A stretch of DNA of 36,077 nucleotides, taken from positions 1-36,077 of IMG/VR virus record IMGVR_UViG_3300009158_000112, one strand, 5' to 3'. Below the pieces are notes generated by a model. That model did not search any database. It had not been told where the DNA came from and was given only the letters and a program-made list of their open reading frames with translations. Position 1 is the first letter of the stretch. Each line of letters opens with the position of its first letter. The translations under genes and the position numbers were made by a program. Of the stretch, positions 1-14,118 are shown in pieces. Source of the stretch: a virus.

Positions 1-73
1 CGGGGTAGCCAAATTGTTTCAAGTTGCTTACTCCTGCTGTCAATAGTTTGTCTTTGATTTGTTCGTTTGTCAT
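1..73 (-). CDS. Small hypothetical protein (5' end only)
   Basis: The ATG at 73-71 on the minus strand opens a reading frame that runs out of the window; 24 residues are visible, starting MTNEQIKDKLLTAGVSN. The product is not recognised. It lies downstream of the small accessory genes on the same strand and follows half-site A by about 90 nt, so it is probably another member of the same array. The leader holds a purine-rich stretch (GGGGAGG on the minus strand near 110) that is too far from the start to be its ribosome binding site. Confidence 0.45.
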   Translation of the reverse strand, partial: MTNEQIKDKLLTAGVSNLKQFGYP

Positions 74-163
74 TTTATTTTAGTTTTAAAGTTTATCAAT
101 TCCTCCCCGCAAAAGGGTGTTTATATTATACTCTGTTTTTCAATTTAAGTTTAGTTTAATAAA

Positions 164-188
164 CGTTTCATATTTGCAACCGTTATAT
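164..188 (-). repeat. attC-like half-site A
   Basis: In gene sense the motif reads TAACGGTTGCAAATATGAAA and starts about 18 nt after the stop of the 204-425 gene. It is nearly identical to the 5' arms of sites E, F and G. No complementary 3' arm ending in GTTA was found before the next gene. Confidence 0.5.
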
Positions 189-203
189 TCAATAACTTAA
201 AAT

Positions 204-425
204 TCATGGTTTTAATGGACCTAAAAATGAAGCATTTTCATAATATGGATGATGTATTGGTTCGGAATCCCATAACGCATTTAATGATTTAATCTTTGCT
301 CTTTCTTCATCACCTGATACGACAGCAAATTCTATATCACCATCTTTAAGTTTTATCTTGTATAATCCATCACCATTAGGTTTATCAGACCAAGAATTTT
401 CAGTTTTAAATTCAATTTTTTCCAT
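204..425 (-). CDS. Small hypothetical array protein (73 aa)
   Basis: A 73-residue soluble protein beginning MEKIEFKTENSWSDKPN, with no signal peptide or membrane segment. It has a beta-strand-like pattern (GLYKIKLKDGDIEFAVV) and a hydrophobic C-terminal segment with ENASFLGP. The family is not recognised. It is the gene between attC-like site B (upstream) and half-site A (downstream). The 3' arm of site B, in gene sense, contains TATATTTG, which fits the Bacteroidota -7 element TAnnTTTG and lies about 35 nt before the start, so the gene may carry its own promoter. The ATG at 425 is the only reasonable start. Confidence 0.65.
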   Translation of the reverse strand: MEKIEFKTENSWSDKPNGDGLYKIKLKDGDIEFAVVSGDEERAKIKSLNALWDSEPIHHPYYENASFLGPLKP

Positions 426-449
426 ATGTATAAATTTTAAGTTACTAAA

Positions 450-532
450 TATAACAACAAATATAAGAAATAAATCTTACTTTGTCTATTTTTTAATGAA
501 AAGATTTACTTCTCATATTTGCTGATGTTACC
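450..532 (-). repeat. attC-like site B (long imperfect hairpin)
   Basis: On the plus strand the left arm is 450-476 and the right arm 503-532. In gene sense the right arm begins TAAC-ATCAG-CAAATATGAG and pairs with a left arm ending ATATTTG-TT-GTTA. The stem is about 20 bp (with CAAATAT, AGAA and TAAATC blocks) around a loop of about 26 nt. The gene-proximal arm has 3 more bases than the other between the outer TAAC/GTTA pair and the inner stem. It starts 9 nt after the stop of the 540-902 gene. Confidence 0.7.
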
Positions 533-539
533 TGCAAGG

Positions 540-902
540 CTACCTTGACACTTCGATAATAGCATCAGGATATTCTTTACAGGCTTCTAAATACTTTTCG
601 ACAAAAGGAACAAAATGCTCATACATTCCCCACCCATTAGGAGAATTGAAAGTTTCAAAATGTTCAGGTCTTGCTTTTAAATCAGCTAATCCTTTTTCAA
701 GTAATTCAACTATTTCACTTGCCTTTGTTTTTCCAATTTCCTCTGGTCGCCAAAGGGCTTCATAAATTCCTGCTTCACCTGCCATTTTACCTAAGTTATG
801 GGTAATGTTTGCATCGTAAACGGTTTCATCTTCTTCTGTTAATGTTTTGCCAGCATCGTAGCTAATCCATTTTTTTCGTGTTAAATAAACACCTAAACTC
901 AT
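540..902 (-). CDS. Conserved hypothetical array protein (120 aa)
   Basis: A 120-residue soluble protein. The pattern NLGKMAGEAGIYEALWRP (about residues 36-53) followed by a NGWGMYEHFVPFV segment and a C-terminal YLEACKEYPDA matches a hypothetical protein I have seen repeatedly in phages and Bacteroidota, with no established function. It is mostly helical with acidic patches. The gene is alone between full sites C (upstream) and B (downstream), so it is the clearest single-gene cassette in the array. The start at 902 follows a GGAACAAA leader. Confidence 0.75.
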   Translation of the reverse strand: MSLGVYLTRKKWISYDAGKTLTEEDETVYDANITHNLGKMAGEAGIYEALWRPEEIGKTKASEIVELLEKGLADLKARPEHFETFNSPNGWGMYEHFVPFVEKYLEACKEYPDAIIEVSR

Positions 903-942
903 TTTGTTCCTTTTTTAAATTCTGCTGAATAATCCGCCCAGC

Positions 943-1066
943 AGGTAACAGCGGTTTGGCAAAAAAGCCGTTAAGTATTTCAAATGAACATTTGTGCTAA
1001 ACATCAATATTCGTGTTCCAAATTAGCATCCGTTTCGGCTTCTTTGCCAACCCGCAAACGTTAGCA
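943..1066 (-). repeat. attC-like site C (long imperfect hairpin)
   Basis: The left arm (943-972) has a GCGGTTTGGCAAAAAAGCCG core and the right arm is 1035-1066. In gene sense the site opens TAAC-GTTT-GCGGGTTGGC and closes GCCAAACCGC-T-GTTA, giving a stem of about 24 bp with few mismatches. Shorter pairing in the interior (TGCTAA with TTAGCA) may extend it. The gene-proximal arm again has 3 extra bases (GTTT against T). The TAA stop codon of the 1061-1303 gene is part of the outer TAAC box. Confidence 0.75.
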
Positions 1067-1303
1067 ATCATTTTGTTCCCTACGCACGAAGAACTCGTCA
1101 TAAGTTTCTTTAGCGTGTTTTTCGGGGTAATAATCCAAGTGGTTGTCATTTCTGCCCTGAACATACATTTTACACATTTGTTCCTTTTCTTTTGGTAGCA
1201 ATTGCCAAATTTTTTCCTTCATATTAGTATGTGTGGGATGATAATTTTTGTCATCAAATTCCTTGCACCATTCTAACAATTGATTTAATACTGTTTTTTC
1301 CAT
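1061..1303 (-). CDS. Small hypothetical array protein (80 aa)
   Basis: An 80-residue protein starting MEKTVLNQLLEWCKEFDDKN. It is charged and mainly helical, with no recognised domain. An upstream in-frame ATG at 1372 would add 23 residues, but that extension runs through the intergenic region, and the ATG at 1303 after an A/T-rich leader is preferred. Its stop codon is embedded in attC-like site C. Half-site D lies upstream, so this gene and the 1415-1708 gene may share one cassette. Confidence 0.6.
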   Translation of the reverse strand: MEKTVLNQLLEWCKEFDDKNYHPTHTNMKEKIWQLLPKEKEQMCKMYVQGRNDNHLDYYPEKHAKETYDEFFVRREQNDC

Positions 1304-1382
1304 ATTTATAATTTTAGTTTCAAAATCCACGCAAACAAAACGAAGTGCTAATTTAAAAGTTTCTACAAGCAAACCTTCTCAT

Positions 1383-1399
1383 ACACCCGACCGTTATGC
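1383..1399 (-). repeat. attC-like half-site D
   Basis: In gene sense GCATAACGGTCGGGTG begins about 18 nt after the stop of the 1415-1708 gene. It has the TAACGG box but no convincing complementary arm in the roughly 90 nt before the next start. Confidence 0.4.
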
Positions 1400-1414
1400 A
1401 CAATTAATTGCTTT

Positions 1415-1708
1415 TTAAGTATTCATCAACGCAATCGTTACTTGAATGTCCTTCGCAGTTAAAATCATATCATACTCGATAAATATGACATCACCTTCTC
1501 GTTCATCAAAGGACTCTAGTCTATTATACATATATTTTAAATCTTTATCATATTCTAATAAAAATTCTTGATATTGATAAATCATAACAGACACATGATT
1601 TCCTTCGCCAGCAAGTATAGATTCAGCACCTTCAAATGAACATAATTTAGCAAAACCATCTGTTATGCTTTTCATATATTCTTCGTATTCCTTTTGATAT
1701 TCTCTCAT
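1415..1708 (-). CDS. Small hypothetical array protein (97 aa)
   Basis: A 97-residue acidic, helix-rich protein starting MREYQKEYEEYMKSITDGFA. No domain is recognised. It lies directly downstream of full site E, whose closing GTTA is about 36 nt before the ATG, and is followed by half-site D. Orientation and size match the rest of the array. Confidence 0.65.
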   Translation of the reverse strand: MREYQKEYEEYMKSITDGFAKLCSFEGAESILAGEGNHVSVMIYQYQEFLLEYDKDLKYMYNRLESFDEREGDVIFIEYDMILTAKDIQVTIALMNT

Positions 1709-1741
1709 TTTTTTATTTGTATAAAAATTTTAAAACTAAAA

Positions 1742-1794
1742 CATAACAACAAATAAAACACATTAAAACGATGTTTTATTTGCAACCGTTAGCG
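1742..1794 (-). repeat. attC-like site E (compact hairpin)
   Basis: In gene sense the site opens TAACGGTTGCAAATAAAAC and closes GTTTTATTTG-TT-GTTA around a 13-nt loop, with a perfect 10-bp inner stem (CAAATAAAAC). The gene-proximal arm has GGTTG where the distal arm has TT, the same polarity as the other sites. It starts 11 nt after the stop of the 1803-2069 gene. Confidence 0.75.
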
Positions 1795-1802
1795 GTAATT
1801 GG

Positions 1803-2069
1803 TCACACTAACTTCCATTGCCAGTCAAAAGCACTTTCACTCTTGCATTGGCAGCAAAATATATCATATGCAGGTCTCCAACTTGTTAAATGTATTGTTC
1901 CGTCAGGTGCTTTTGCTAATAGTTCCACATCATTCGGTGGTGGTTCTTCATTAACATACATCCAACTACCGCTAACACCAAATAAACCCAATAAAAGTGT
2001 CTGTGCGTAATCGGTAGTTATTTCGTCATATTTTAGCTGTTCTGCTATTTTTAAAATTTGGTCTTTCAT
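1803..2069 (-). CDS. Small hypothetical protein with PP-x-V-E / SWRPAYDIF pattern (88 aa)
   Basis: 88 residues starting MKDQILKIAEQLKYDEITTD. The second half (about residues 38-88) has the pattern EEPPPNDVELLAKAPDGTIH, then LTSWRPAYDIFCCQCKSES and DWQWK. This loosely resembles DUF551-type small domains and matches a hypothetical protein family of Bacteroidota and their phages that I recall but cannot name. Two adjacent cysteines and a CQC could bind metal; that is a guess. The start lies only about 11 nt from half-site F. Confidence 0.65.
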   Translation of the reverse strand: MKDQILKIAEQLKYDEITTDYAQTLLLGLFGVSGSWMYVNEEPPPNDVELLAKAPDGTIHLTSWRPAYDIFCCQCKSESAFDWQWKLV

Positions 2070-2079
2070 ATCTTTTACT

Positions 2080-2102
2080 GTGTTTATTTGTAACCGTTAT
2101 CG
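2080..2102 (-). repeat. attC-like half-site F
   Basis: In gene sense GATAACGGTTACAAATAAAC starts about 9 nt after the stop of the 2109-2513 gene. It is nearly identical to the 5' arm of site E, but the ATG of the next gene follows within about 11 nt, leaving no room for a 3' arm. Confidence 0.5.
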
Positions 2103-2108
2103 GCAACC

Positions 2109-2513
2109 CTAATACGACTTACCGTGTTTATGTGGGCGACTTGCATTATATCTCATTTTTGCCTTAATATGACTTTCAATATCAATGCCTTTAAATGCAC
2201 ATAAATCAAGCACACGAATAACTACATCGGCCAATTCATCTTCAAAAGTGTTTTTAACTGAATGTTCAAACTCGTTTTTAAAAGCTTCCTCGCCACAAAA
2301 TGAAGCTCCATAATTGGCATCTGCCAAGCCTTTGATAAACCACTTTTTAGATTCGTCAATGTTTTCGTAATACCATTTTTTTCTATCCGCTTCCAATGCT
2401 TCGGAAACTTCTGAATGTATAAGGCAAAGCATTTCGCCAATGTTTTTTTCACTATCAAAAAATCCTTTTGATTTGGCATTTTCGTGAATTTTTGTTGCTA
2501 ATTCGTTTAACAT
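2109..2513 (-). CDS. MazG-type nucleotide pyrophosphohydrolase
   Basis: A 134-residue single-domain member of the all-alpha NTP pyrophosphatase (MazG/dUTPase-2) superfamily, which hydrolyses nucleoside triphosphates or alarmone-like nucleotides to the monophosphate and pyrophosphate. The metal-binding pattern is visible: LIHSEVSEALEADR (ExxE type, about residues 31-44) and FEDELADVVIRVLDL (EDELAD, about residues 90-104), with KGIDIESHIKAKMRYNASRP at the C-terminus as usual for the family. As an array gene it is a plausible accessory factor that modifies the host nucleotide pool. It lies downstream of full site G and upstream of half-site F. Confidence 0.85.
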   Translation of the reverse strand: MLNELATKIHENAKSKGFFDSEKNIGEMLCLIHSEVSEALEADRKKWYYENIDESKKWFIKGLADANYGASFCGEEAFKNEFEHSVKNTFEDELADVVIRVLDLCAFKGIDIESHIKAKMRYNASRPHKHGKSY

Positions 2514-2565
2514 TTTTGTATTTGTTTTTAAGTTTATAATTCATCATTACGAAAGAAGGGCAGCC

Positions 2566-2656
2566 GATAACACGTAATATAAAAAATTGGCTATCAGCGT
2601 TTGTGGTAACGTGAAAGGTTCATACAAGCCAACTTTTCATATTACCAACCGTTATA
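2566..2656 (-). repeat. attC-like site G (long imperfect hairpin)
   Basis: The left arm is 2566-2593 and the right arm 2627-2656. In gene sense the site opens TAACGGTTGGTAATATGAAAA, continues to GTTGGCT, and closes AGCCAATTTTTTATATTAC-GT-GTTA. The inner stem is about 19 bp with one or two mismatches. The gene-proximal spacer GGTTG faces a shorter distal spacer. It starts about 16 nt after the stop of the 2671-2892 gene. Confidence 0.75.
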
Positions 2657-2670
2657 GAGAATAAAACAAA

Positions 2671-2892
2671 CTACTTACCTGCTTTACCTCTTTCATATGC
2701 TTCTGAGATATGCCACATTATTTTCTGCTTCAACCAATCTTTTGTTTCTTTATTTATAATTTTGAGTTTTTCATCAAGTTCTTTAAATGTATCATCTACA
2801 ACAGAACCGTTTGTTTTACTCTCTATAACAACAGATATATTCAAGTTTTCTGTTGCTTCGTTGAAACTTTTTATGTGTCTTTTATCTTTCAT
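2671..2892 (-). CDS. Small hypothetical array protein (73 aa)
   Basis: 73 residues starting MKDKRHIKSFNEATENLNIS. The KSFNEATENL segment resembles the FxxF/E motif found at the N-termini of several virion proteins in this window, but here it may be coincidental. The rest is lysine-rich and helical (KIINKETKDWLKQKIMWHIS). The family is unknown. It is the last gene before full site G and is preceded by a weak half-site H. Confidence 0.6.
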   Translation of the reverse strand: MKDKRHIKSFNEATENLNISVVIESKTNGSVVDDTFKELDEKLKIINKETKDWLKQKIMWHISEAYERGKAGK

Positions 2893-2948
2893 CTTCGTGT
2901 GTTTTTTAGTGTATATATTAAAAAAGAAAACCTGAAATATATCTGATT

Positions 2949-2960
2949 ATCATTAGCAGA
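2949..2960 (-). repeat. Degenerate half-site H
   Basis: In gene sense CTGCTAATGATA sits about 13 nt after the stop of the 2969-3322 gene, at the position where the other genes have GCTAACG. One base of the TAAC box differs and no 3' arm is present. It is supported mainly by position. Confidence 0.2.
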
Positions 2961-2968
2961 AATGGCTA

Positions 2969-3322
2969 CTATACCGCTTCGTAAGACAATAACTGCTCTT
3001 TTAATATTTCGGCTTCCTCTTGCACTTTCTCTTTTGACCATTTAGATAGGTTGTCTGAATAATGAGCCGTATCAAATCCAACGCACCATTTACCTTCATC
3101 TTCTTTATCTAATTCCCATTTTTCAACCATCTTAGCATCTACTAATTCTGAAAAAGTTAATCCACCGTGAACATCTACATCAATATCGTCATAGTGTTTA
3201 CCGTGTAATGGGTTGTTTTCAGGGATAAGAACATATCCATTTCCCCAACCAAAATCAATCATACCTCTTGTATATCTCCATATACTACATTTTGGTAATA
3301 TTATTTCTAATGTGGCTTCCAT
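2969..3322 (-). CDS. Conserved hypothetical array protein (117 aa)
   Basis: 117 residues. The central pattern FGWGNGYVLIPENNPLHGKH (about residues 24-43), then VDVHGGLTFSEL and WCVGFDTAHYSDN, is a recognisable conserved hypothetical protein of phages and Bacteroidota. No function is established; the conserved H, D and G residues suggest a compact fold, perhaps metal-binding. The gene is preceded by a 230-nt AT-rich stretch (3323-3552) containing half-site I and no other supported gene. Confidence 0.75.
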   Translation of the reverse strand: MEATLEIILPKCSIWRYTRGMIDFGWGNGYVLIPENNPLHGKHYDDIDVDVHGGLTFSELVDAKMVEKWELDKEDEGKWCVGFDTAHYSDNLSKWSKEKVQEEAEILKEQLLSYEAV

Positions 3323-3519
3323 TTTTTTATATTTTCAAATTTAAGTTTCATAGATTTAGTATTTTTCCATATTGTAAAATGCTTAAATCTAAAAATAAGT
3401 GTATACATTTCGTAATTTTCTAAAAAATTTTTCATTTATTATAATTTTTATTTTTAAATTTCCATCCTAATAATAAAAATGATTAAGTTTTTCGGTTAAT
3501 TTACTTTTGTGCTTCTAAT

Positions 3520-3541
3520 GCCACAAGCATCGAACGTTAGC
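3520..3541 (-). repeat. attC-like half-site I
   Basis: In gene sense GCTAACGTTCGATGCTTGTG begins 13 nt after the stop of the 3553-3774 gene. It has the TAACG box and a possible short inner stem. No closing GTTA arm is seen in the following AT-rich 200 nt. Confidence 0.45.
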
Positions 3542-3552
3542 TTCAATAAAAA

Positions 3553-3774
3553 TTACTCATTTGGCATTTTTGGTAATGGCATCCAATGAGTAACATCATC
3601 AACCCAATTGCCTATTGCTGGTTCATCAGTTTCCCACCACTCTTTTTCTCTGTTCCATCTCCCTACAAAGATTGCTAAGTCATTACAAAACAAAACATCT
3701 TCCGAAAGATGCTTTTGCCATTCGTGTTTTGTCCAAGTTCCTGTTGGTTTAATTTTTTGGTCTATCCATTCCAT
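3553..3774 (-). CDS. DUF551 family protein (73 aa)
   Basis: 73 residues with the DUF551 signature: N-terminal MEWIDQKIKPTGTW, a central VLFCNDLAIFVGRW strand pair and the terminal VTHWMPLPKMPNE, where THWMPLP is diagnostic. DUF551 proteins are small and common in phages and prophages; their function is unknown. It is the first gene of the array in the direction of reading, and the closing GTTA of full site J is about 25 nt before its ATG. Confidence 0.8.
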   Translation of the reverse strand: MEWIDQKIKPTGTWTKHEWQKHLSEDVLFCNDLAIFVGRWNREKEWWETDEPAIGNWVDDVTHWMPLPKMPNE

Positions 3775-3796
3775 CGCACTAATTTTATTTTACAGC

Positions 3797-3873
3797 TTAT
3801 AACAGCACCTAACAAAAATGTCTGCTAAGCATTGTTTGTCAAATGAAGTAATTTTTAGGCAACTGCTCTTATC
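3797..3873 (-). repeat. attC-like site J (upstream edge of the array)
   Basis: In gene sense the site opens GATAAGAGCAGTTGCCTAA and closes TTAGG-TGCT-GTTATAAG. The arms pair over ATAA/TTAT, AGCA/TGCT and CCTAA/TTAGG plus an A/T run, with GTTG unpaired on the opening arm only. The opening box is TAAG rather than TAAC, so this terminal site may be diverged or may be the recombination point at which cassettes were added. Confidence 0.55.
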
Positions 3874-3894
3874 AATAATACTAAGACTTCTGTA

Positions 3895-3930
3895 AAAATA
3901 AAAAAAGGATCCCTTAAAAAGAGATCCTTT
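3895..3930 (-). terminator. Rho-independent terminator after the zinc-ribbon gene
   Basis: On the minus strand AAAGGATC (3930-3923) pairs with GATCCTTT (3911-3904), followed by a T-rich tail. It lies about 20 nt past the stop of the 3953-4681 gene and separates the phage operon from the cassette-like array. Confidence 0.75.
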
Positions 3931-3952
3931 AGAGCCTGACGTTAAATTTATT

Positions 3953-4681
3953 TTAGATTTTAGTTCCGCATGTTGGGCAAAACTTCCATCCTTGTGATTT
4001 CATTCGTGAACCACAGCTGTGACAGTAGTTACGAATGGTTTGTGCTTCGACTGGTTTTTGAGATTCTGGTAAAATCTGCAAATCTATTGATTTGCTAATC
4101 CATGAATTGTACGTTGAATTGTCAGAAACAAAATGTTGATTTGAAGTTTCACCCTTTTCAGTACGACCAGTTTCAATATTCGTTTCAACATTTGCTGCAA
4201 TCGAACTTACACTACCGATGTCTGATGAAAAGTAGCAGAGTGAACGATTAAGATCGTTGCCGACTGATGGACTGCCAAACATCGTGTTAACGTTCCAATC
4301 ATACACGGTTGGTTGGTAATACTGAACTATGAGTTCATCGTAAAATTCGATTCGTATCTTACCGTTATTTTGAATTGCTTTTGCAGCATCAGTCGAATTC
4401 TCAACTGAGTAGGTTTCAAAAAGAAACTTTTTAGCTTCATCCAACCAACGCTCTAGAAAAACTCTTTGTCCTGGACGAAGAACTATACCTGAATTAGAGA
4501 TTGATACTCCATTCATGTAAATCTTGGTTAAAACCTTTGTTGTTTTTGGATTAAAAAGCTCTATCTCAAAATGAGTTTTATCTTTAAGATAGAAAGAGTC
4601 GCCGTATTGTTTTAGGCGATTGTGATTTACTGCAATGCTTGCAGAGGGGTCGCTTACCCCAATTTGGTGATAATATGTCAT
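3953..4681 (-). CDS. Phage protein with C-terminal zinc ribbon (242 aa)
   Basis: A 242-residue protein. Residues 1-120 form a beta-rich domain with the pattern LTKIYMNGVSISNSGIVLRP followed by GQRVFLERWLDEAKKFLFET, which I have seen in hypothetical proteins of large phages. A polar linker follows, and the C-terminus (about residues 217-242) is a four-cysteine zinc ribbon (CHSCGSRM...FCPTCGTKI). The function is not established; a role in binding virion protein or nucleic acid is possible. The gene has its own terminator (3895-3930) and a roughly 120-nt leader with a hairpin, so it looks monocistronic. Confidence 0.75.
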   Translation of the reverse strand: MTYYHQIGVSDPSASIAVNHNRLKQYGDSFYLKDKTHFEIELFNPKTTKVLTKIYMNGVSISNSGIVLRPGQRVFLERWLDEAKKFLFETYSVENSTDAAKAIQNNGKIRIEFYDELIVQYYQPTVYDWNVNTMFGSPSVGNDLNRSLCYFSSDIGSVSSIAANVETNIETGRTEKGETSNQHFVSDNSTYNSWISKSIDLQILPESQKPVEAQTIRNYCHSCGSRMKSQGWKFCPTCGTKI

Positions 4682-4730
4682 ATTTACCTTGATTATTTTT
4701 TAATTAAGCAGACGCCTTTGTGGCAAACAC

Positions 4731-4768
4731 CACTCTAAAGCCAATTAGACTCAACGCCGACTAGAGTG
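4731..4768 (-). other. Hairpin in the leader of the zinc-ribbon gene
   Basis: CACTCTA (4731-4737) pairs with TAGAGTG (4762-4768) across a 24-nt interior in the otherwise non-coding stretch 4682-4810. It is too weak to name as a riboswitch or tRNA, and no T-loop sequence is present. It might be a leader structure or a remnant. Confidence 0.3.
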
Positions 4769-4810
4769 TCAGGCTCTTGTAGTTATATACTCTACTCAAA
4801 TTAAATAGTT

Positions 4811-5062
4811 TTAACTTCGCGGCTTTCTAGTCCCGTCTTCAAATGCACGTTTCGTTGCATCCTTCATTCGAAGTACATCTGCAAGTGACAAGTTATGTGA
4901 TTCAACAAATGCTTCAATTGCACCAACAAGATCTGCTAATTCAACGAATAACATTATCGGATTTGCCTGAGCATAGGCATCTTCTGTTTCTAAGAATTCT
5001 TCTCTAATCTTTGAGAAGTCTCCATACGTTCCCTTAGGAATCTCCTTTATGTGGTAACCCAT
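4811..5062 (-). CDS. MazG-like phage protein (83 aa)
   Basis: 83 residues starting MGYHIKEIPKGTYGDFSKIR. The patterns EEFLETEDAYAQANPIMLFV and ELADLVGAIEAFVE, then MKDATKRAFEDGTR, match a short MazG-like family frequent in phages, with acidic ExxED and ELAD metal-site candidates. A longer frame opens at 5170, but its first 36 residues overlap the neighbouring gene in another frame; the ATG at 5062 gives the family-typical start and a 29-nt overlap. The role is probably nucleotide-pool processing, next to the synthetase-like gene. Confidence 0.7.
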   Translation of the reverse strand: MGYHIKEIPKGTYGDFSKIREEFLETEDAYAQANPIMLFVELADLVGAIEAFVESHNLSLADVLRMKDATKRAFEDGTRKPRS

Positions 5063-5606
5063 TTTTCTTAAGTATTTCTTTGACCATTGATAGTCGAGGC
5101 TCAGCACAGCCGGTGCCATAAATCCAAGTAAGATACTCACAGTTTCGAATACCGTAACTTCCAAGTTCAATACCGGCGGCTTCTAAATCATATCCAAGTG
5201 TCGTAGGTTTCATCATTATATGTAAACCTAATTCATTTTCAAAAAATTCTCGAGCATCTCTGACAACCGTTTTTAGATTAGTATCAGATACTTCATCAGT
5301 CACAATCAATTCATTCTTGATAAAATATTTTGTATGGGTCGCATCAAATGGCTCGTCTCTAAAGCATGGAGTCACAGTTTGATATCGCCCGTTTGGTAAG
5401 AAGCCCTTTAAATATAGGTAGAGAAAGCTTTGTTCACCAGATGCAACTAGAACTTTGCCTTTTCCAGCAATTTCCCAATCCTTTGTTCCAAGCGGCTTAG
5501 TGATATTTGATATTGCTTGAGTAACTGTCCATGGTGACTCAATTCGAGTATATCCAAGGTTAGTGTAATGCGCGATTGCTCTATCGAGCCTTCCATAATC
5601 TATCAT
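5034..5606 (-). CDS. Class II aminoacyl-tRNA synthetase-like catalytic domain (190 aa)
   Basis: A 190-residue protein resembling the catalytic core of class II synthetases without a tRNA-binding domain. A motif 2-like segment, VTPCFRDEPFDATHTKYFIK (about residues 78-97, FRDE), and a motif 3-like segment, ELGSYGIRNCEYLTWIYGTG with CAEPRLS (about residues 147-173, where GTGCAEPR replaces GxGxxxR), can be seen. Stand-alone synthetase paralogues usually adenylate something other than tRNA or act as regulators. The substrate cannot be told. The start overlaps the stop of the 5603-5905 gene (ATGA), implying translational coupling. Confidence 0.7.
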   Translation of the reverse strand: MIDYGRLDRAIAHYTNLGYTRIESPWTVTQAISNITKPLGTKDWEIAGKGKVLVASGEQSFLYLYLKGFLPNGRYQTVTPCFRDEPFDATHTKYFIKNELIVTDEVSDTNLKTVVRDAREFFENELGLHIMMKPTTLGYDLEAAGIELGSYGIRNCEYLTWIYGTGCAEPRLSMVKEILKKNGLPHKGDS

Positions 5607-5905
5607 AATTTAATTCTGTTTTCTTGAGAGTATGTGTATTCTGGCATAATGCAAGTATCGTACTTTGTTATAAAGTTCATGAGAATTCTCAAATTACCGA
5701 ATGTGTCATACTCAATATCTTTATCGAATTTATTAGAAAATTTTATTCCGTTTCCATGATCAGTGGCTGACATTATTTCTTGACCCGGATAAGTCCATGC
5801 CGGTAGATGTGAATACCTTAGTGTATAGACCGTTCTTTTATCTGTTTGATTAACGTCGATGTCATATTCATGACTATCGCCATCATATATTTTAAATGTT
5901 TTCAT
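5603..5905 (-). CDS. Hypothetical protein (100 aa)
   Basis: 100 residues starting MKTFKIYDGDSHEYDIDVNQ, rich in D, Y and T, with probable beta structure. No family is recognised. Its stop overlaps the start of the synthetase-like gene by 4 nt, so the two are probably co-translated. It follows the broken lipoprotein gene by 24 nt. Confidence 0.65.
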   Translation of the reverse strand: MKTFKIYDGDSHEYDIDVNQTDKRTVYTLRYSHLPAWTYPGQEIMSATDHGNGIKFSNKFDKDIEYDTFGNLRILMNFITKYDTCIMPEYTYSQENRIKL

Positions 5906-5929
5906 ATTTTCTTTTTTCTACTAATTCAA

Positions 5930-6194
5930 TTAGTACTGACCCCTATGTCTTTGATGAACATAATAGAGTAGGTTTTGAACTTTTTCTGCGTGATTCATAT
6001 TCAATAATTTAAAAGTCATTTCTTTGACATACTTACCGTTGTCTATTGAATATTCGATCGCACTTAACGTTGCAACAGTGTCCTTCTCATAAAAGATAGT
6101 ATTGTTCTCAGAATGAAATCCAGTAGTATCTATTTTTTTTAATTGATGTACAGCCGATTAATAAGGCTGAACTTAATATTAATAATTTATTCAT
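5930..6194 (-). pseudogene. Small lipoprotein gene with a +1 frameshift in an A8 run
   Basis: The ATG at 6194 encodes MNKLLILSSALLIGCTSIKK, a lipoprotein signal peptide with lipobox LIGC, then runs into TGA in the wrong frame. A shift at the A8 run (T8 on the plus strand, about 6133-6140) joins it to a clean second frame, IDTTGFHSENNTIFYEKDTV, continuing for about 67 residues to the stop at 5930-5932. The total of 265 nt is one base too many for an 88-residue protein. Either a real slippage mutation or a sequencing error in a homopolymer would explain it. Confidence 0.7.
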
Positions 6195-6996
6195 GGTTAT
6201 TTTGTTTTCTTTCGTTTATTATTTCTATTAACTCGCTATAGTTTTTGTCTATTATAAATACAAAATTATATCCTAATTTTTCACAACTTTCTTTTTTAAA
6301 AAAATTAATTTTTATATTATTTTTATAAGTGTACGTCGATTTTATTTCTACAATTAAATTTTTATCCCTTATGAAAAAATCAGAATGATAAATCTTAGTG
6401 TTATTATTGACATTATATGGTATAGCTGGACCCCTTTCTACAATAATATTATTTTTATTACAAAAAATAAGAAAATCTAATTCATATGATCCTTGATACA
6501 AAATACCATTGTATGTTGATGTTTTAAAGGAGTTTTTTTGAATTTTATTCCATATTTCTGGAAATTGATTAGTATGCCGCACTCCATACTTATTCAAACA
6601 AGTTTTTTCTTTCTTTTTTTGATTATTAAATGTCTCTGAACCATATTTTTCCAATTTGGTCTTTCTGCTTTTCATTAAAGAATTATGAGTATTTCGCAAT
6701 GATAGTTCTCTCTGTAGAGCTGGATTATCGAAGTTTGATCCATATTTTTTAATTCTTTCTTTACTGGAACATGATTTACAGTTATGCACAGGTCTATTTG
6801 ATATTCCTCTAAATTGAATATTAAACGTTGCATCGCATAAATCACATTTAATATTTACTCTTGCGTGACTTCCACTAGGTAAATGAGTAGGGCTAACATA
6901 AAGTATTTGACCGACACTTGCAGAATATCCAAAACGTCTATACTGTTTCAAGTGATTTGAATTAACTTTAACTGGAACACGTTCATCTAAAAACAT
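6187..6996 (-). CDS. Putative homing-type endonuclease: zinc finger, KYG repeats, PD-(D/E)XK domain
   Basis: 269 residues. A zinc-binding region comes first (CDLC about residue 51, CKSC about 74). It is followed by three helical repeats, each with a KYG core (KKYGSNFDNP, EKYGSETFNN, NKYGVRHTNQ; residues about 82-145), of the sort found in phage-borne homing endonucleases. The C-terminal half carries YELDFLIFCNKNNIIVERG and HSDFFIRDKNLIVEIKS, a PD-(D/E)XK nuclease pattern (SD...VEIK). The DNA target is unknown; it is free-standing, not in an obvious intron. It shares the KYG repeats with the endonuclease at 20930-22513. Its stop overlaps the lipoprotein start by 8 nt. Confidence 0.7.
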   Translation of the reverse strand: MFLDERVPVKVNSNHLKQYRRFGYSASVGQILYVSPTHLPSGSHARVNIKCDLCDATFNIQFRGISNRPVHNCKSCSSKERIKKYGSNFDNPALQRELSLRNTHNSLMKSRKTKLEKYGSETFNNQKKKEKTCLNKYGVRHTNQFPEIWNKIQKNSFKTSTYNGILYQGSYELDFLIFCNKNNIIVERGPAIPYNVNNNTKIYHSDFFIRDKNLIVEIKSTYTYKNNIKINFFKKESCEKLGYNFVFIIDKNYSELIEIINERKQNNHE

Positions 6997-7062
6997 AATA
7001 CATAATTCTTTTAATTATATATTAGTTTTAACCCTAAGAAATGTCATGAATATTCAAAAGGT

Positions 7063-7404
7063 TTATTTATTTTTAATGTATTCTGAATATTCATTGTTCT
7101 CAAGCAGTTCCATCAATACTTCTCCATGACAAATCATTTTCATTCCTTCAGTATAATATGAAGGAGTTTGGCAACACCAGCACCCGAGAGTCTTTCCTTC
7201 GAGTTCATGTAAGTGTTCCAATAACCATTTGCCTTCGCCTTCTAGAATATACTTTCTATAACTCTCGACAGCCTCTTCTCGAGAAGCAACTATTTGAGTT
7301 GCATTGGTCGGTTTATTATCGATATGTGTGAACGGATTTCCCCATTTTGAGCCGCGTCCAATATACACATCATATGGTTCCCGTTTAAAGTGAACTACTT
7401 TCAT
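7063..7404 (-). CDS. DUF4326 protein (113 aa)
   Basis: 113 residues starting MKVVHFKREPYDVYIGRGSK. The patterns YIGRGSKWGNPF (about residues 13-24), SREEAVESYRKYIL, and LEGKTLGCWCCQTP with CHGEVLMELL define DUF4326, a small domain common in phages and related in pattern to nucleoside/ADP-ribose-type folds; the function is unproven. The start at 7404 lies 2 nt downstream of the preceding stop; the alternative ATGs at 7419 and 7428 would overlap the upstream gene. Confidence 0.8.
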   Translation of the reverse strand: MKVVHFKREPYDVYIGRGSKWGNPFTHIDNKPTNATQIVASREEAVESYRKYILEGEGKWLLEHLHELEGKTLGCWCCQTPSYYTEGMKMICHGEVLMELLENNEYSEYIKNK

Positions 7405-7406
7405 TT

Positions 7407-7616
7407 TTATCGTTTCCATGTTATACATCCATCTACCCAGATTTCCAGTACTGAGCTGTCTTTTTGTGCATGTTTTGAATATGCTTCGACATTTTTTATT
7501 TTATCATATACTCGGTGTTTATTACCTTTGTATACAAGTTTAATCACAGATCCTCCTGGAATCAGGCTTAAATCATTTGTTCGGTAGCCGGCTCCGACGT
7601 TTATTTCGTGTCCCAT
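7407..7616 (-). CDS. Hypothetical phage protein (69 aa)
   Basis: 69 residues starting MGHEINVGAGYRTNDLSLIP. The pattern GGSVIKLVYKG (about residues 21-31), then VYDKIKNVEAYSK and EIWVDGCITWKR, suggests a small beta-rich fold seen in other phage hypotheticals. The function is unknown. It is tightly packed, 3 nt after the lipoprotein gene and 2 nt before the DUF4326 gene, so probably in one operon with them. Confidence 0.65.
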   Translation of the reverse strand: MGHEINVGAGYRTNDLSLIPGGSVIKLVYKGNKHRVYDKIKNVEAYSKHAQKDSSVLEIWVDGCITWKR

Positions 7617-7619
7617 ATT

Positions 7620-7850
7620 TTATTTAATTTGTATCATAGTAACACTCTCTACTCCTCGGTAGATAAGTATATTCACAGTATCGTCCACTGTTATTTTATA
7701 CAGACCATGAGTGATTTGTTCTGAAAGTTTTTCTATTTTTATGTTTCCTGCATGATAAGTCAGATCTTCGTCTAATTTTGAAACAGTACGATTCGTAGAT
7801 TGACTACAAGATAGTAACAATAGAGTAATAAAGATTAATAAGTATTTCAT
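7620..7850 (-). CDS. Small lipoprotein (76 aa)
   Basis: 76 residues with a lipoprotein signal peptide (MKYLLIFITLLLLSCSQSTN, lipobox LLSC, Cys15). The mature part of about 60 residues is predicted soluble. It would be exported and lipid-anchored in the host envelope. Phage-borne lipoproteins of this size often act in superinfection exclusion; that is inference only. The nearby broken gene at 5930-6194 encodes a second, unrelated small lipoprotein. Confidence 0.7.
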   Translation of the reverse strand: MKYLLIFITLLLLSCSQSTNRTVSKLDEDLTYHAGNIKIEKLSEQITHGLYKITVDDTVNILIYRGVESVTMIQIK

Positions 7851-7872
7851 GTTATTTTTTTGTAGAGTCCAA

Positions 7873-8236
7873 TTAATATTCGTGTTTCTCTAAATTAAAC
7901 GCTTTAAATATTTCTTCGGCATCTGCCGGTAATATTTTTATCCAGATAAAAACTTCTCCATATGGATTTGTTCCAATATTACATCCTCCAAATTCCCAAT
8001 AGTCAATCTGACCAAAATAGGTATTTTCTCAGAATGAAATAGCCCAATGTGGTGTATTTTCCTGTATTATAGGAAATGCTTCCATGTATGTTAGTTTACT
8101 AGGTTTCCTTTGAAAGACTCCTGGATTGTCTACTGTTCCCTTTTCATCTACCCAACTCTTATATGACTTTGATAAAGCAGCATCATAAAGTTCTCTTGGA
8201 TTTTTTTGGAATATTTTTTATTATCGCATGCTTCAT
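7873..8236 (-). pseudogene. Broken hypothetical gene (frameshift plus in-frame TGA)
   Basis: The ATG at 8236 gives MKHAIIKNIPKK, then a shift at an A7 run is needed to continue as NPRELYDAALSKSYKSWVDE and on to HWAISF. An in-frame TGA interrupts (8032-8034 region), after which ENTYFGQIDYWEFGGCNIGT continues to the stop at 7873-7875. The length of 364 nt is 3n+1, agreeing with a one-base insertion. The two lesions in one gene suggest true decay more than a single read error. The coding pattern is otherwise clear; the function is unknown. Confidence 0.65.
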
Positions 8237-8240
8237 TTCA

Positions 8241-8570
8241 CTATCCAGGTATTTTATTTTCAAATTCTTCTTTTAGCTTAAGATAGCTATCATACCGTCT
8301 ATTCTTGGCCCATTTTGCATCTCGCTCATTATCTTTAATTCTCAGGTTGAATTCTTCATCTGTTTCTTCAATCATTCGAGTAACAATTGCATAGTAATGA
8401 GGATCCCATGAGTTATTTTCAGAATAGTAACCTTCATCACGACCAATAGTAAGGTGATCAGAATCTTGGAATTCAATATGTTTAATATCTTTCCATTCAA
8501 TTGGGTTATCGGACTGTATGTGAAAAATATCAGTCGCAATCTTGATTTTGGTTGGTGATTTATCTTTCAT
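8241..8570 (-). CDS. Hypothetical protein (109 aa)
   Basis: 109 residues starting MKDKSPTKIKIATDIFHIQS. The first half (IKHIEFQDSDHLTIGRD) looks beta-rich; the second is charged and helical (EETDEEFNLRIKDNERDAKW). No family is recognised. A longer frame opens at 8681, but the ATG at 8570 gives an 11-nt overlap with the upstream HD-domain gene and avoids a 120-nt overlap. Probably co-transcribed with it. Confidence 0.65.
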   Translation of the reverse strand: MKDKSPTKIKIATDIFHIQSDNPIEWKDIKHIEFQDSDHLTIGRDEGYYSENNSWDPHYYAIVTRMIEETDEEFNLRIKDNERDAKWAKNRRYDSYLKLKEEFENKIPG

Positions 8571-9084
8571 CTTTAAATAGGTCAAGTAAATATGCATATA
8601 GTGGAAAGTATTCATGCTGAAACTTTCCTTCAACTCCAAGTTGTTCACCGAAGTTTTTATTTTCTTTTTTGTACATTTCAAACATTCGTGACTGCGTCAT
8701 TTTAGAATACTGCACGTTTGCAATACGATCACATAATTTTACGAATATTGCACCCGGCGTCATTCTGATTCCAGTATAATATGCATCATTTGCTCGCTCT
8801 TTACGATTCTTTCCTTTCTCATTTGAGACAGCGTAAATAATATCTGCTGCATGTTCTCCAAGAACTTCTTTAACATCATTATAAGAGGTGCGAGTATCTT
8901 CGATTAGGTCATGTCCAAATGCAGCTAACCTACATTCATACCTTAGTTTTTCGCTTAGCAGATGTTCATAACTATGTGCTACCTGTGCGACCATTCTTAG
9001 ATGGAATTCATATGGCAAATACTTGTCGTAATAATGATTTGTGTTATTGTGCTGATCGACGCACCACTGGATTTTCTTTTCCAT
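8560..9084 (-). CDS. HD-domain hydrolase of the SpoT/MESH1 type (174 aa)
   Basis: 174 residues with the HD-family signature for ppGpp hydrolases: an N-terminal helix with H (about residues 28-38), then RLAAFGHDLIEDTRTSY (HD followed by ED, about residues 52-68) and KLCDRIANVQ (D, about residues 116-125). Such stand-alone domains remove pyrophosphate from (p)ppGpp or related alarmones. In a phage this would counter the stringent response; the substrate is not proven by sequence. It is adjacent to the cREC gene (1 nt gap) and overlaps the following gene by 11 nt. Confidence 0.8.
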   Translation of the reverse strand: MEKKIQWCVDQHNNTNHYYDKYLPYEFHLRMVAQVAHSYEHLLSEKLRYECRLAAFGHDLIEDTRTSYNDVKEVLGEHAADIIYAVSNEKGKNRKERANDAYYTGIRMTPGAIFVKLCDRIANVQYSKMTQSRMFEMYKKENKNFGEQLGVEGKFQHEYFPLYAYLLDLFKDER

Positions 9085-9085
9085 A

Positions 9086-9544
9086 TTATACTGTGTGTTT
9101 TATTTCTACTCTTACACAGGTTTGAGGCTGTGCTTCGTTCATTAAAAAGTTGTTAATATAACCCATGATATTTGCAGAACCGATTGGATTTGCAGAATGT
9201 GTGTATATTGTTGGAAACGGCATGTTTTTTGCGCGCTTTACATCTCGTGGAGTAAGTTCCCATTTAGGATTCATATCATAAAAATGATTCATTATCCATT
9301 TTGCACAGTCTAATCCTGTTTTTTCAGCAATGTTTGAATAATCTAATTCAAAATTGGGAGAAACGTTCCGGTAATATTCCTGCATTGCAGATTCACCAAG
9401 ATCATGGTCTAATGATATTGTCGAGATGTTCTCTAACCCAAGTTCTTTAACTTTGGCTACAAACTCATCATAATTGCGAACCACAACCCAATCTCTATCA
9501 ACCGGAGTTCGAACGTCGTCTAAATAAATTCTTTGTTTTTCCAT
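9086..9544 (-). CDS. Cyclic-phosphate processing receiver-like (cREC) protein (152 aa)
   Basis: 152 residues with the cREC pattern: RIYLDDVRTPVDRDW (DD near the N-terminus), VRNYDEFVAKVKELG, ISLDHDLG (LDHDLG, about residues 43-50), TGLDCAKWIMNH and a C-terminal HSANPIGSANIMGYINNFL. The family is a receiver-fold domain proposed to process cyclic phosphate ends in RNA repair or nucleotide metabolism. It is the first gene of the minus-strand operon running to 3953 and is divergent from the virion genes. Confidence 0.75.
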   Translation of the reverse strand: MEKQRIYLDDVRTPVDRDWVVVRNYDEFVAKVKELGLENISTISLDHDLGESAMQEYYRNVSPNFELDYSNIAEKTGLDCAKWIMNHFYDMNPKWELTPRDVKRAKNMPFPTIYTHSANPIGSANIMGYINNFLMNEAQPQTCVRVEIKHTV

Positions 9545-9603
9545 TTATAAATCAATTATACTCAAATCGAATTACAATATTAAATTTTTGACATACTTTT
9601 CTT

Positions 9604-9620
9604 GATAAATAAATTAAAAT
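9604..9620 (+). promoter_or_regulatory. Candidate late promoter motif
   Basis: GATAAATAAATTAAAAT lies 12 nt before the ATG of the first virion-block gene. It belongs to a recurring (G/A)ATAAATAATAAAA motif found in front of many genes here and resembles the T4 late promoter TATAAATA. Confidence 0.5.
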
Positions 9621-9631
9621 AAATCACTGAT

Positions 9632-10285
9632 ATGCCAGGAAGAGTTTTAAATTTCTCAGAATTTGCAGGTAAGTACTCTAGCGATGATGAAAAGACCCTA
9701 GATTCATTTACTCAATCCTCAAATAACTTCGAAGAAGGATTTGACAAAGAATCATATAACCAAAAACCAATTGGCCCAAATAAACCAGTAGAAGGAGGCA
9801 TTGAAATGACACCGCCTCAGCCTGGAGAAGTAGGATCACCTAAATTTACATCAGCAGTTGATGCTGGCATGAATGCACCAGAAGAAGTTGAAGCGCCTGC
9901 TGAAACTCCAGCTGAACCTACAGAAGAGGAAGAACCAGTAGAACAAGAAGAAACTGAAGAAGTAACTGAACCTGCAGAAGAGGAAGAATCAGAAGAGAAG
10001 AAAGAAGGAGAAGAAGTTCCTGAACCAGAAGCTGGTGCAAATCCTAAAAACGTTGAAGAATCGTATAGAGTTAAAAATTTCCGTGGATTCCTTAATGAAT
10101 CGCATAACGAATACTTATTCGACGATGATTGGAAAGAAGAGGCAGAGGAAGATGATTACAAATGTCCTACTTGCGGAGAAGAAGATTATACTTCAGATTT
10201 CGGAGAAGAATCAGATGATGAACATTGCCCAGACTGTGGTGCAGAATTCGACAAATTTGGAGCAACCTGCGGGTGCAATATGTAA
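9632..10285 (+). CDS. Acidic protein with two capsid-targeting-like motifs and a zinc ribbon (217 aa)
   Basis: 217 residues. The N-terminus RVLNFSEFAGKYSS has the FxEF motif seen in T4 capsid-targeting sequences. Residues about 60-138 are an extremely acidic E/P/A-rich segment, like scaffold or internal head proteins. A second copy, YRVKNFRGFLNES, occurs near residue 145. The C-terminus is acidic with a zinc ribbon (CPTCG about residue 178, CPDCG about 200, plus CGC). The layout suggests a virion or scaffold protein possibly cut by the head protease to release the C-terminal module. It is the first gene of the plus-strand cluster, with a late-type motif just upstream. Confidence 0.65.
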   Translation: MPGRVLNFSEFAGKYSSDDEKTLDSFTQSSNNFEEGFDKESYNQKPIGPNKPVEGGIEMTPPQPGEVGSPKFTSAVDAGMNAPEEVEAPAETPAEPTEEEEPVEQEETEEVTEPAEEEESEEKKEGEEVPEPEAGANPKNVEESYRVKNFRGFLNESHNEYLFDDDWKEEAEEDDYKCPTCGEEDYTSDFGEESDDEHCPDCGAEFDKFGATCGCNM

Positions 10286-10302
10286 AAATATATTTAGAAA
10301 AG

Positions 10303-10899
10303 GTGACAGATATAATTATCGCATTTTTATCGGGAGTAATTGGACCAGTGATAGTTGTCATGGTTAGTCATTATTTGACAAAACGAAAGAAACCGGATGT
10401 TTTAGTAGAGACAGTTAATAATGCGAACATTATTAATGATGAGATCGAACATGTACTTGAAGAGTATAAAGCAGATCGTATTTGGATTTTACAATTCCAT
10501 AATGGTGGACACTTCTATCCTACTGGAAAATCGATTCAAAAATTTAGTATGATCTACGAATTTGTTAGATTATCGAAAGATACAATTAGAGAAAACTTTC
10601 AAAATATTCCAGTAAATCTTTTTAGTAAAGCATTATCAAAGGTATTGAAGGATGACTATCTTGCAATAACTGACTATAAAGACGAAACTGTTGCAACTTG
10701 TGGTTTAAAATATCTTTCAGATGAATGTAGAACAAAAAGTTCATACTTCTTTGGAATCAGAAACTTCGAAAATCGTTTAATTGCAGTACTGGGAGTAGAA
10801 TATACTGATCGTAAGCGAGTATTAAATGCTGAAGAAATTGTGAAATTACGAGTATCTGCTGCTCAAATTAGCGGAGAATTAGCATCACATCTTAAATGA
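10303..10899 (+). CDS. Membrane-anchored GAF-like domain protein (198 aa)
   Basis: A GTG start at 10303 gives 198 residues: a single N-terminal membrane segment (TDIIIAFLSGVIGPVIVVMV), then KRKK, then a GAF-like domain (about residues 55-195) with DRIWILQFHNGGHFYPTGKS and a terminal SAAQISGELASHL helix. The open frame reaches back to 10225 without an ATG, and that part overlaps the upstream gene, so GTG is chosen. The domain is found in phage hypotheticals, sometimes with a membrane anchor; the ligand is unknown. Its TGA overlaps the ATG of the 51-residue gene. Confidence 0.65.
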   Translation: MTDIIIAFLSGVIGPVIVVMVSHYLTKRKKPDVLVETVNNANIINDEIEHVLEEYKADRIWILQFHNGGHFYPTGKSIQKFSMIYEFVRLSKDTIRENFQNIPVNLFSKALSKVLKDDYLAITDYKDETVATCGLKYLSDECRTKSSYFFGIRNFENRLIAVLGVEYTDRKRVLNAEEIVKLRVSAAQISGELASHLK

Positions 10900-11051
10900 A
10901 GAAACTAGTTGAAAACTATTTTGAATTTATACAGTCGGCTCAGATCGCCCAGAATCCCAACGCGTATACAATGTACAGCGCAAACCCACAAGGATTTACA
11001 CATTCTAGAGCACAAGCAATTGCACGATATGCACAAAAGTGCAAGGACTAA
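10896..11051 (+). CDS. Small protein with FxFI N-terminal motif (51 aa)
   Basis: A short gene in ATGA overlap with the GAF-like gene. The product starts MKKLVENYFEFIQSAQIAQN and continues to a basic C-terminus rich in A and Q (AQAIARYAQKCKD). YFEFIQSA closely fits the capsid-targeting-like motif of neighbouring products (compare SYQEFINEA). It overlaps the convergent gene at 11048-11299 by 4 nt. Probably a small internal virion protein. Gene calling with a 60-residue minimum would miss it. Confidence 0.6.
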   Translation: MKKLVENYFEFIQSAQIAQNPNAYTMYSANPQGFTHSRAQAIARYAQKCKD

Positions 11052-11299
11052 TCGTCGTCTTCGTCCAGCTCATCTAATCGCGTGGGAAAGATACTTATAC
11101 TGCTAATCTCCCAATTTAATAGAACATCATCCAAATCATCGTGAACTATCGAAAGAGTTTGAATCTCTTCACCGATTGTTTTATAGCTATGTGTTAGAAT
11201 TTTTTCTTTGATTTGTTCCAACTTTGATAAAATTGTCGTTTCTAATTCTTTACGAATTGCCTGCGACTTAACTATCAGTTCATCATTTATTTTTGCCAT
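11048..11299 (-). CDS. Small coiled-coil protein (83 aa), opposite strand
   Basis: 83 residues starting MAKINDELIVKSQAIRKELE; the first half is a heptad-like helix, the C-terminus is acidic (RLDELDEDDD). It is the only minus-strand gene inside the plus-strand virion block, and overlaps the preceding gene tail to tail by 4 nt. No family is recognised. Confidence 0.55.
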   Translation of the reverse strand: MAKINDELIVKSQAIRKELETTILSKLEQIKEKILTHSYKTIGEEIQTLSIVHDDLDDVLLNWEISSISIFPTRLDELDEDDD

Positions 11300-11379
11300 A
11301 CATTACTTTTATATTACGAAATATCGTTTGGTTTCTAAATAAATAAACTAAAGATCAAATCTTATTAAAATAACATAAC

Positions 11380-11838
11380 ATGAGAATGAAAAATTTTAAA
11401 AGCATTAGACGCCTCCTTGAGCAAGCAGCATTACCTGCAGCAATTGAGCCAAATGCAACGGCATCACTAGGACTTCAACCAGAAGCTCCAGAAACTCCAG
11501 AAATGCCAATCGATTATCCAGCACAACAGCTTGCGCTTCCAGCAGAAGGTCAAGCATCTGCTCCAGTTGATCCAATGACGATGACTGTTGGTGATTTCAT
11601 CAATAAATGTAAAGAGAATGATCCATTGGTAGCAATGGGAATTGAATCATATGTTGAAAAGAATCGTCATATGTTTGGCGGTCACACTGCACAACCTGCA
11701 CAAATGATGACTCAACCAGATCAGGATTTGACATTTTCCGCTGCAGTTGCTCCACAAGATGCACAAATTGCACCTCCTGCACCAGTACAACCATTTTCAT
11801 TAGATCAATCACAAGATTCTCTAAATTTTCCAGGATAA
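11380..11838 (+). CDS. Virion-type protein, Ala/Pro/Gln-rich, with N-terminal targeting-like motif (152 aa)
   Basis: 152 residues starting MRMKNFKSIRRLLEQAALPA; MKNFKSIRRLLEQA resembles the T4 capsid-targeting sequence with a possible E/A cleavage region. A low-complexity A/P/Q/E segment follows, then a small folded part (MTVGDFINKCKENDPLVAMG), then another A/P/Q-rich tail. ATGs at 11380 and 11386 are both possible. The composition fits an internal head or structural protein. A late-type AT motif (AAATAAATAAACTAAA) lies about 30 nt upstream. Confidence 0.6.
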   Translation: MRMKNFKSIRRLLEQAALPAAIEPNATASLGLQPEAPETPEMPIDYPAQQLALPAEGQASAPVDPMTMTVGDFINKCKENDPLVAMGIESYVEKNRHMFGGHTAQPAQMMTQPDQDLTFSAAVAPQDAQIAPPAPVQPFSLDQSQDSLNFPG

Positions 11839-11839
11839 A

Positions 11840-12121: not shown

Positions 12122-12132
12122 ATAATAAAAAT
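12117..12132 (+). promoter_or_regulatory. Candidate late promoter motif
   Basis: AATAAATAATAAAAAT, 10 nt before the ATG at 12143 and overlapping the stop codon of the upstream gene. It is an almost exact match to the motif at 29621, 35772 and, on the minus strand, 14958 and 18262. Confidence 0.55.
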
Positions 12133-12142
12133 ATACACTACA

Positions 12143-12963: not shown

Positions 12964-12970
12964 ACTAACG

Positions 12971-13708: not shown

Positions 13709-13713
13709 TTAAT

Positions 13714-14091: not shown

Positions 14092-14092
14092 A

Positions 14093-14118
14093 CAAAAAAA
14101 TCCCCAATTGGGGATTTT
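14093..14118. terminator. Bidirectional terminator between convergent genes
   Basis: AAAATCCCC (14097-14105) pairs perfectly with GGGGATTTT (14110-14118) across AATT, with A and T runs on both sides. It sits between the plus-strand gp25 gene and the minus-strand peptidase gene. Confidence 0.85.

Follow-up and report, generated by a model that had tools for sequence, protein, structure and literature searches.

What system assembled the small genes at one end of a T4-like phage contig, and does it still move them? The contig is IMG/VR record IMGVR_UViG_3300009158_000112, which was analyzed over its positions 1 to 36,077 (36,077 nucleotides; hereafter the window). The initial annotation described the first 3.9 kb as an integron-like array of gene cassettes that might use a host integrase, and left room for a related but different recombination system. 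The second reading proved to be the better one. The array is very probably the integrase-less form of a phage-borne, integron-like cassette platform.

About ten small genes on the minus strand filled window positions 1-3800, with elements beginning in TAAC between them, as first described. A strict structural scan (AAC, 3-7 nt, at least 14 of 16 pairs, 1-4 nt, GTT) found four complete elements at 456-529, 947-1062, 1974-2098, and 2569-2653, all on the minus strand and within the array. The scan found none on the plus strand of the window and none in the remaining 32 kb outside the array, in agreement with the statement that elements are missing from position 3953 rightward. Chance did not account for the hairpins, since Markov-shuffled arrays held 0.05 elements per 3.9 kb on average and at most 1 (300 shuffles). 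Of the five inverted repeats initially listed (B, C, E, G, and J), J had only its 3' half (3801-3825); the complete element at 1974-2098 had been omitted. The elements had no match in Rfam at gathering thresholds, and a DNA similarity search of plasmids gave no match. The features are listed below, with strands.

1-3825, minus: cassette array, with its 5' end on the right; on the left it passes beyond the window end
3801-3825, minus: half-element J, a 3' arm and GTTATAAGC box with no clear 5' arm
Near 1393, 3536, and 182: half-elements
3536-3803, minus: cassette body, start GTTATAAGCTG, end GAAGCTAAC; gene 3553-3774 with weak DUF551 similarity; only an element 3' arm before it
2969-3322, minus: cassette gene, 117 amino acids, phrog_2164-like (function unknown)
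2671-2892, minus: cassette gene, 73 amino acids, no family
2569-2653, minus: complete att element, composed of TAAC, GGTTG, an 18-bp stem (G.T at its positions 8 and 13), GT, and GTTA
2096-2571, minus: cassette body, self-complementary ends GTTATCGGCTGCCC ... AGGGTTGCCGATAAC; gene 2109-2513, MazG-like pyrophosphatase
1974-2098, minus: complete att element; its loop holds the 5' part of open reading frame (ORF) 1803-2069
1788-1976, minus: cassette body, self-complementary ends GTTAGCGGTAGTTGG ... CCAATTACCGCTAAC; ORF 1803-2069
1745-1790, minus: fifth, shorter hairpin element, TAACGGTTG-CAAATAAAAC...GTTTTATTTG-TTGTTA
1393-1747, minus: cassette body, gene 1415-1708 (97 amino acids), then a half-element (5' arm only)
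1061-1303, minus: cassette gene, 80 amino acids, no family
947-1062, minus: complete att element, the most stable hairpin of the window
527-949, minus: cassette body, self-complementary ends GTTACCTGCTGGGC ... GCCTTGCAGGTAAC; gene 540-902, phrog_4019-like
456-529, minus: complete att element, whose hairpin with loop has a 94% identical counterpart in the huge phage LR756500.1
182-455, minus: cassette body, ends self-complementary over 26 nt; gene 204-425 (73 amino acids)
1-73, minus: start of the next cassette gene, complete at L007 15534-15746
3953-4681, minus: first gene outside the array, zinc-ribbon protein; element-free from there on

The remainder of the window was that of a T4-like phage, as first annotated, with genes for portal, primase, DNA polymerase, helicase, PhoH, and baseplate wedge. 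The array is slightly poorer in G+C and is located at the contig end, as would also be seen if a bacterial cassette array had been fused to a phage contig during assembly. However, a second record, IMGVR_UViG_3300027733_000149 (L007; 30,955 bp), showed 99.99% identity to window 1-15606 across the junction and was longer, though it possibly came from a related sample. In addition, such arrays were present in circular genomes of cultured phages and in phage records that also carry a portal or terminase gene. An assembly chimera is hardly credible. L007 (L007 position = 15607 minus window position) carried the array about 4 kb past the window end, up to L007 19710, and about 22 array units were counted in the window and this extension by reading of the sequence.

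The hairpins recurred at gene boundaries in related phages, a check that had been set beforehand, and the same site type was present in at least 120 viral loci. IMG/VR loci include near-duplicates, and element counts are lower bounds because ungapped scanning overlooks elements of Polaribacter phage Freya with bulges or with a gene between the arms. A DNA pattern built from one hairpin subtype matched 60 stretches of viral contigs. Among 99 non-redundant stems, the 18-bp L stem varied at almost all positions with pairing kept (covariation); the stem scan demands pairing, so pairing percentages are inflated, while the G.T asymmetry is not. L-stem position 13 was G.T in 73% of these stems, with the G always on the 5' arm (T.G, 0%). 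Most stems had spacers of 5 nt at the AAC side and 2 nt at the GTT side. The opposite strand turns the G.T wobbles into A.C mismatches, and the predicted folding was more stable for the gene-sense strand in 227 of 250 cases. These conserved wobbles may choose the strand that is recombined. The R box was mostly GTTA[TG]NN, and GTTRRRY fitted 35 of 511 sites, which bears out the earlier remark that the boxes do not strictly follow that consensus.

A loop promoter (TTG-N-TAnnTTTG) was considered as a general feature and rejected, being present in 3 of the 99 non-redundant stems; the TAnnTTTG motif alone was in the loops of 11. One hairpin subtype (GGGTGTATGAGAAGG, e.g., L007 16410-16495) has a loop with a Bacteroidota-promoter-like TTTG-N20-TAnnTTTG aimed at the downstream gene, and such sequence is confined to a minority of subtypes. 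Some ORFs start in the hairpin loop and cross the GTT box (window 1974-2098 with ORF 1803-2069; L007 16053-16176 and 16784-16905); thus, part of the reading frame lies within the att site. In Freya phages, an entire gene stands between the two arms of an element.

The ends of each unit indicated what travels together. The unit start (GTTANNNNTAGT...) was complementary to its own end at 6.86 of 9 nt on average, compared to 4.06 across the hairpin and 4.04 ± 0.12 in permuted pairs (104 units). In an enlarged set of 242 units, the values were 6.49, 4.02, and 3.92, respectively. At R-stem position 11, 80% of units had a G.T wobble and 4% a Watson-Crick pair; these units had been selected for a match at positions 4-10. 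This match would be expected for a unit that circularizes and whose ends then pair. Unrelated phages shared stretches of 315 bp and 419 bp, both 100% identical, that ran from TAAC via the hairpin and gene to the next AAC; therefore, the hairpin moves with the gene 3' of it. In phage arrays, the att hairpin stood 5' of its gene at a ratio of 210:5 (215 units). The alternative that the hairpin is owned by the upstream gene, as in integrons, was rejected by the sharing of whole cassettes and by the Freya junctions described below. The initial proposal of phage-borne one-gene cassettes with attC-like hairpins was thus upheld for the array, while the hairpin had to be assigned to the gene on its other side.

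The records behind the element loci were searched with an IntI model, and many held tyrosine recombinases of 265-295 residues. Most of their genes directly followed the array and shared its orientation. An independent search based on the recombinase gave 80 viral loci, 57 of which had elements upstream; in total, about 206 elements were upstream, 9 downstream, and 1 on the opposite strand. An attI motif, AAC-TA(T/G)NATATAT or a near variant, was located 40-90 nt before the start codon in about 70 of the 80 loci, a count made by reading the list, in which a few motifs were weak or cut by contig ends. In complete versions, the attI-like site reads AAC-TATTATATATA, with the recombinase directly downstream. 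Among 50 recombinase records, many of them fragments, a T4-like portal was found in 13 and a terminase domain in 15. LR745206.1 and LR756502.1 gave no match to TIGR02249 or PF00589.

The catalytic residues R, K, H, R, H, and Y were invariant in the recombinases. The domain models placed them between XerA and IntI, with 180-195 bits for NF040815 (XerA) and 150-160 bits for TIGR02249 (IntI; cut-off 265), both below cut-off. TIGR02249 aligned in two pieces and left profile positions of about 206-254 unmatched, and chain residues of about 180-259 of IntI4 (2a3v) were likewise unmatched by the recombinase. The IntI-specific insert between the catalytic motifs is missing. The search for an IntI-type enzyme that the initial annotation had proposed yielded tyrosine recombinases in related phages, but of a type without this insert. 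An AlphaFold2 model (mean predicted local distance difference test score 83, predicted template modeling score 0.60) had IntI4 as its best PDB match, although the TM-scores were modest. The main phage enzymes formed one clade in the tree (100/99) that included one chromosomal sequence and lay within a Bacteroidota group, and two divergent phage enzymes were at the base of that group. IntI4 branched beside the Bacteroidota/phage group with Xer/XerA outside (99/96), although IntI4 is here a single long-branch reference whose position needs more sequences.

Canonical CALINs (clusters of attC sites lacking an integron integrase) have been reported in virulent phages, together with integrons, including in lytic phages and one Polaribacter phage (Qi et al. 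2023, PMC9892861), and the overall architecture of the window array is the same. It could accordingly be asked whether the array was taken from a host integron and is mobilized by a host IntI. The rarity of GTTRRRY, the position of the hairpin 5' of the gene, and the lack of the IntI insert in recombinases beside arrays all speak against this origin, which we consider unlikely. A host IntI need not be invoked, because related phages encode their own recombinase without the insert. At least two att sites with no integrase nearby, as in a CALIN, were found in both the window and L007. However, the window array is merely CALIN-like, because its R boxes are not canonical attC.

Cultured phages differed by gain and loss. 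When phage records were searched by protein, the recombinase turned up in Cellulophaga phage Ingeline and in Polaribacter phages Freya and Leef. Ten Freya isolates from one host strain, deposited as complete circular genomes, differed in length beside the recombinase gene. Seven isolates with matching flanks were compared in 21 pairs, and the array was their only difference. The distance from a conserved gene to the recombinase was 780, 1622, 2524, 2996, 4820, 5415, and 5722 bp, and the first difference was exactly at AAC^ in all 21 pairs, so that the breaks fell at the AAC box, as the initial annotation had asked of any gain or loss. Gains of +842, +902, +472, +2891, and +307 bp all occurred at AAC^ACCCCTATAAC, a single point 46 nt ahead of the recombinase. 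Freya_8 was without exactly the 902-bp block of Freya_10, a precise excision. The direction of each change, gain or loss, was inferred from its position beside attI. In all five blocks, the own ends matched and position 11 had the G/A signature. The enzymes of Freya and Ingeline branched next to the phage recombinase clade (96). The paper describing Freya interpreted the integrase as an indication of temperate potential, and the words integron and cassette are absent from its main text (PMC8776804).

These junctions also bear on another explanation, by which ordinary homologous recombination at the hairpins exchanges the genes, the hairpins themselves being terminators, promoters, or mobile repeats. 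One hairpin is indeed near-identical in two unrelated phages beside different genes, and some loops carry TAnnTTTG. Such repeats explain neither the match of each unit's own start and end, nor the presence of attI and a recombinase where the array ends, nor the base-exact AAC junctions in the isolates. Disfavored by the junction data, this explanation is very unlikely.

Under the cassette platform, the mobile unit would consist of AAC, a spacer of about 5 nt, the 18-bp stem, the loop, a spacer of about 2 nt, GTT, and then one small gene, with the gene flank closing on a sequence that can pair with the cassette start (...NNNTAAC). Crossover would occur at AAC, 5' of the hairpin. In the excised circle, the ends would meet to form an R stem of about 15 bp outside the AAC/GTT boxes, with the 18-bp L stem inside, the geometry known from attC x attI recombination in integrons. 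In complete versions, the phage recombinase, encoded downstream of the attI-like site, would add cassettes beside itself and excise them. This recombinase is presumably the enzyme behind the observed gains and losses, and its substrates are probably folded single strands. The array end in L007 reads ...GGCTTATAAC-TACTAGATTTG, and this attI-like end (AACTACTAGATTTG) may represent a decayed attI-like motif. With such an end, and with its recombinase missing from the known sequence, the array of the window's phage would be either frozen or moved in trans.

Several observations weigh against this reading. A tyrosine recombinase (PF00589) was found neither in the window, as initially noted, nor in the 30,955-bp L007. 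The 462-kb phage LR756500.1 has a similar array and no recombinase in TIGR02249 and PF00589 searches. The Freya recombinase shares only 37.5% identity with the common phage type and has a different attI sequence. Between L007 and another locus, L035, one cassette body was common to both without its hairpin. Conversely, the hairpin and loop at window 456-529 were 94% identical to those of LR756500.1 (L003 8001-8090), an otherwise unrelated phage in which the AAC side and the genes flanking the hairpin were different. Thus, some exchange does not involve whole cassettes. Hairpins may spread or convert separately from genes, which bears on the origin of new cassettes. As a separate observation, the LR756500.1 array end (L006/L003) has an AT-rich stretch after AAC (AACATAAATATATAA) and a ClpP-like gene in the recombinase's place.

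Related arrays were also found on Bacteroidota chromosomes. A related recombinase was encoded in many of 395 sampled genomes of this phylum, and often its N terminus was extended by about 100 residues. Of 20 that were followed, approximately 15 had such elements at the other side of the recombinase gene and on the opposite strand. The chromosomal arrays share with the phage arrays the hairpins, the polarity, the related recombinase, and the own-end match (6.86 vs 3.50). They differ in that the genes are opposite relative to the site, the gene preceding the site as in integrons in 19 of 21 cases (19:2), and in that the N-extended recombinase reads toward the array. The near-absence of the hairpin pattern from chromosomes (4 of about 85,000 genomes) was discarded as a result, since the pattern covered a single hairpin subtype and the recombinase-based search found arrays. 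In a Crocinitomicaceae metagenome-assembled genome (L070 4117-4770, JAGYIR010000012.1), a phage-type cassette adjoined the attI-like end of the recombinase. It was 88-89% identical to phage cassettes and its gene was degraded, which suggests transfer from phage to chromosome. At another chromosomal locus (L188 1900-4600, minus strand), a phage-type recombinase with an attI motif followed a DNA methyltransferase gene, and the apparent 3' end of a group II intron lay before the recombinase and attI.

Compared to known systems, the platform works like an integron. As in integrons, the recombinase gene lies by an attI-like site where cassettes are inserted, one-gene cassettes stand in tandem, AAC/GTT boxes flank hairpin sites conserved more in structure than in sequence, and each cassette start is complementary to its own end. 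The recombinase branches by IntI4, its top fold match. An integron is expected to have attI next to the integrase and new cassettes arriving there; the motif in about 70 of 80 loci and the five Freya gains showed both. Three tested features of the IntI family were absent, namely the insert of about 47 residues, GTTRRRY (rare here), and the gene-then-attC order. In their place, phage cassettes have the site 5' of the gene with genes oriented toward the recombinase, and fixed G.T wobbles stand where attC has extrahelical bases. With Xer/dif and pdif modules, the platform shares a XerA-like recombinase core. The dif and pdif sites are short duplex sites, unlike the hairpin sites, attI, and tandem one-gene cassettes seen here.

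The phage sites of PMC9892861 were found by canonical attC models and tested with IntI1, and the consulted sections of that paper describe no dedicated insert-less recombinase and no reversed cassettes. Matches to an "integron gene cassette" were reported among variable islands of cryoconite phages (PMC7468147). A literature search whose scope excluded preprints and most subscription papers found no system of this kind. On balance, we favor the combined view, with less confidence than for the window array itself, that this is a distinct platform, sister to IntI integrons and centered on Bacteroidota and their phages. It would have a recombinase without the IntI insert, strand choice by fixed G.T/A.C in both stems, a phage version with the gene flipped relative to the att site, cultured flavobacterial phages rearranging the array now, and phage cassettes entering host chromosomal arrays.

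Viruses therefore appear to own a gene-cassette platform, beyond fragments of host integrons. Polaribacter phage Freya and its host provide a cultured system for watching gain and loss. A recombinase near IntI without the insert allows a test of which part of integron recombination depends on that insert, and strand choice can be tested where G.T wobbles replace extrahelical bases. The platform could explain why small accessory genes turn over rapidly in Bacteroidota phages; it also offers a gene route between phage and chromosome. Among 70 varied cassette proteins, few had Pfam matches: three DNA methylases and one each of RNA ligase, exoribonuclease, acetyltransferase, MazG-like protein, and phosphatase. 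By these similarities, the contents would suit accessory or counter-defense genes; the majority are of unknown function.

Two further features were seen in the T4-like part of the window. The DNA polymerase ORF (480 amino acids) is the C-terminal part only and faces a homing-endonuclease-like gene (window 19417-20859 and 20930-22513). The helicase (window 24641-27408) is apparently split around an endonuclease-like gene at 24980-25945.

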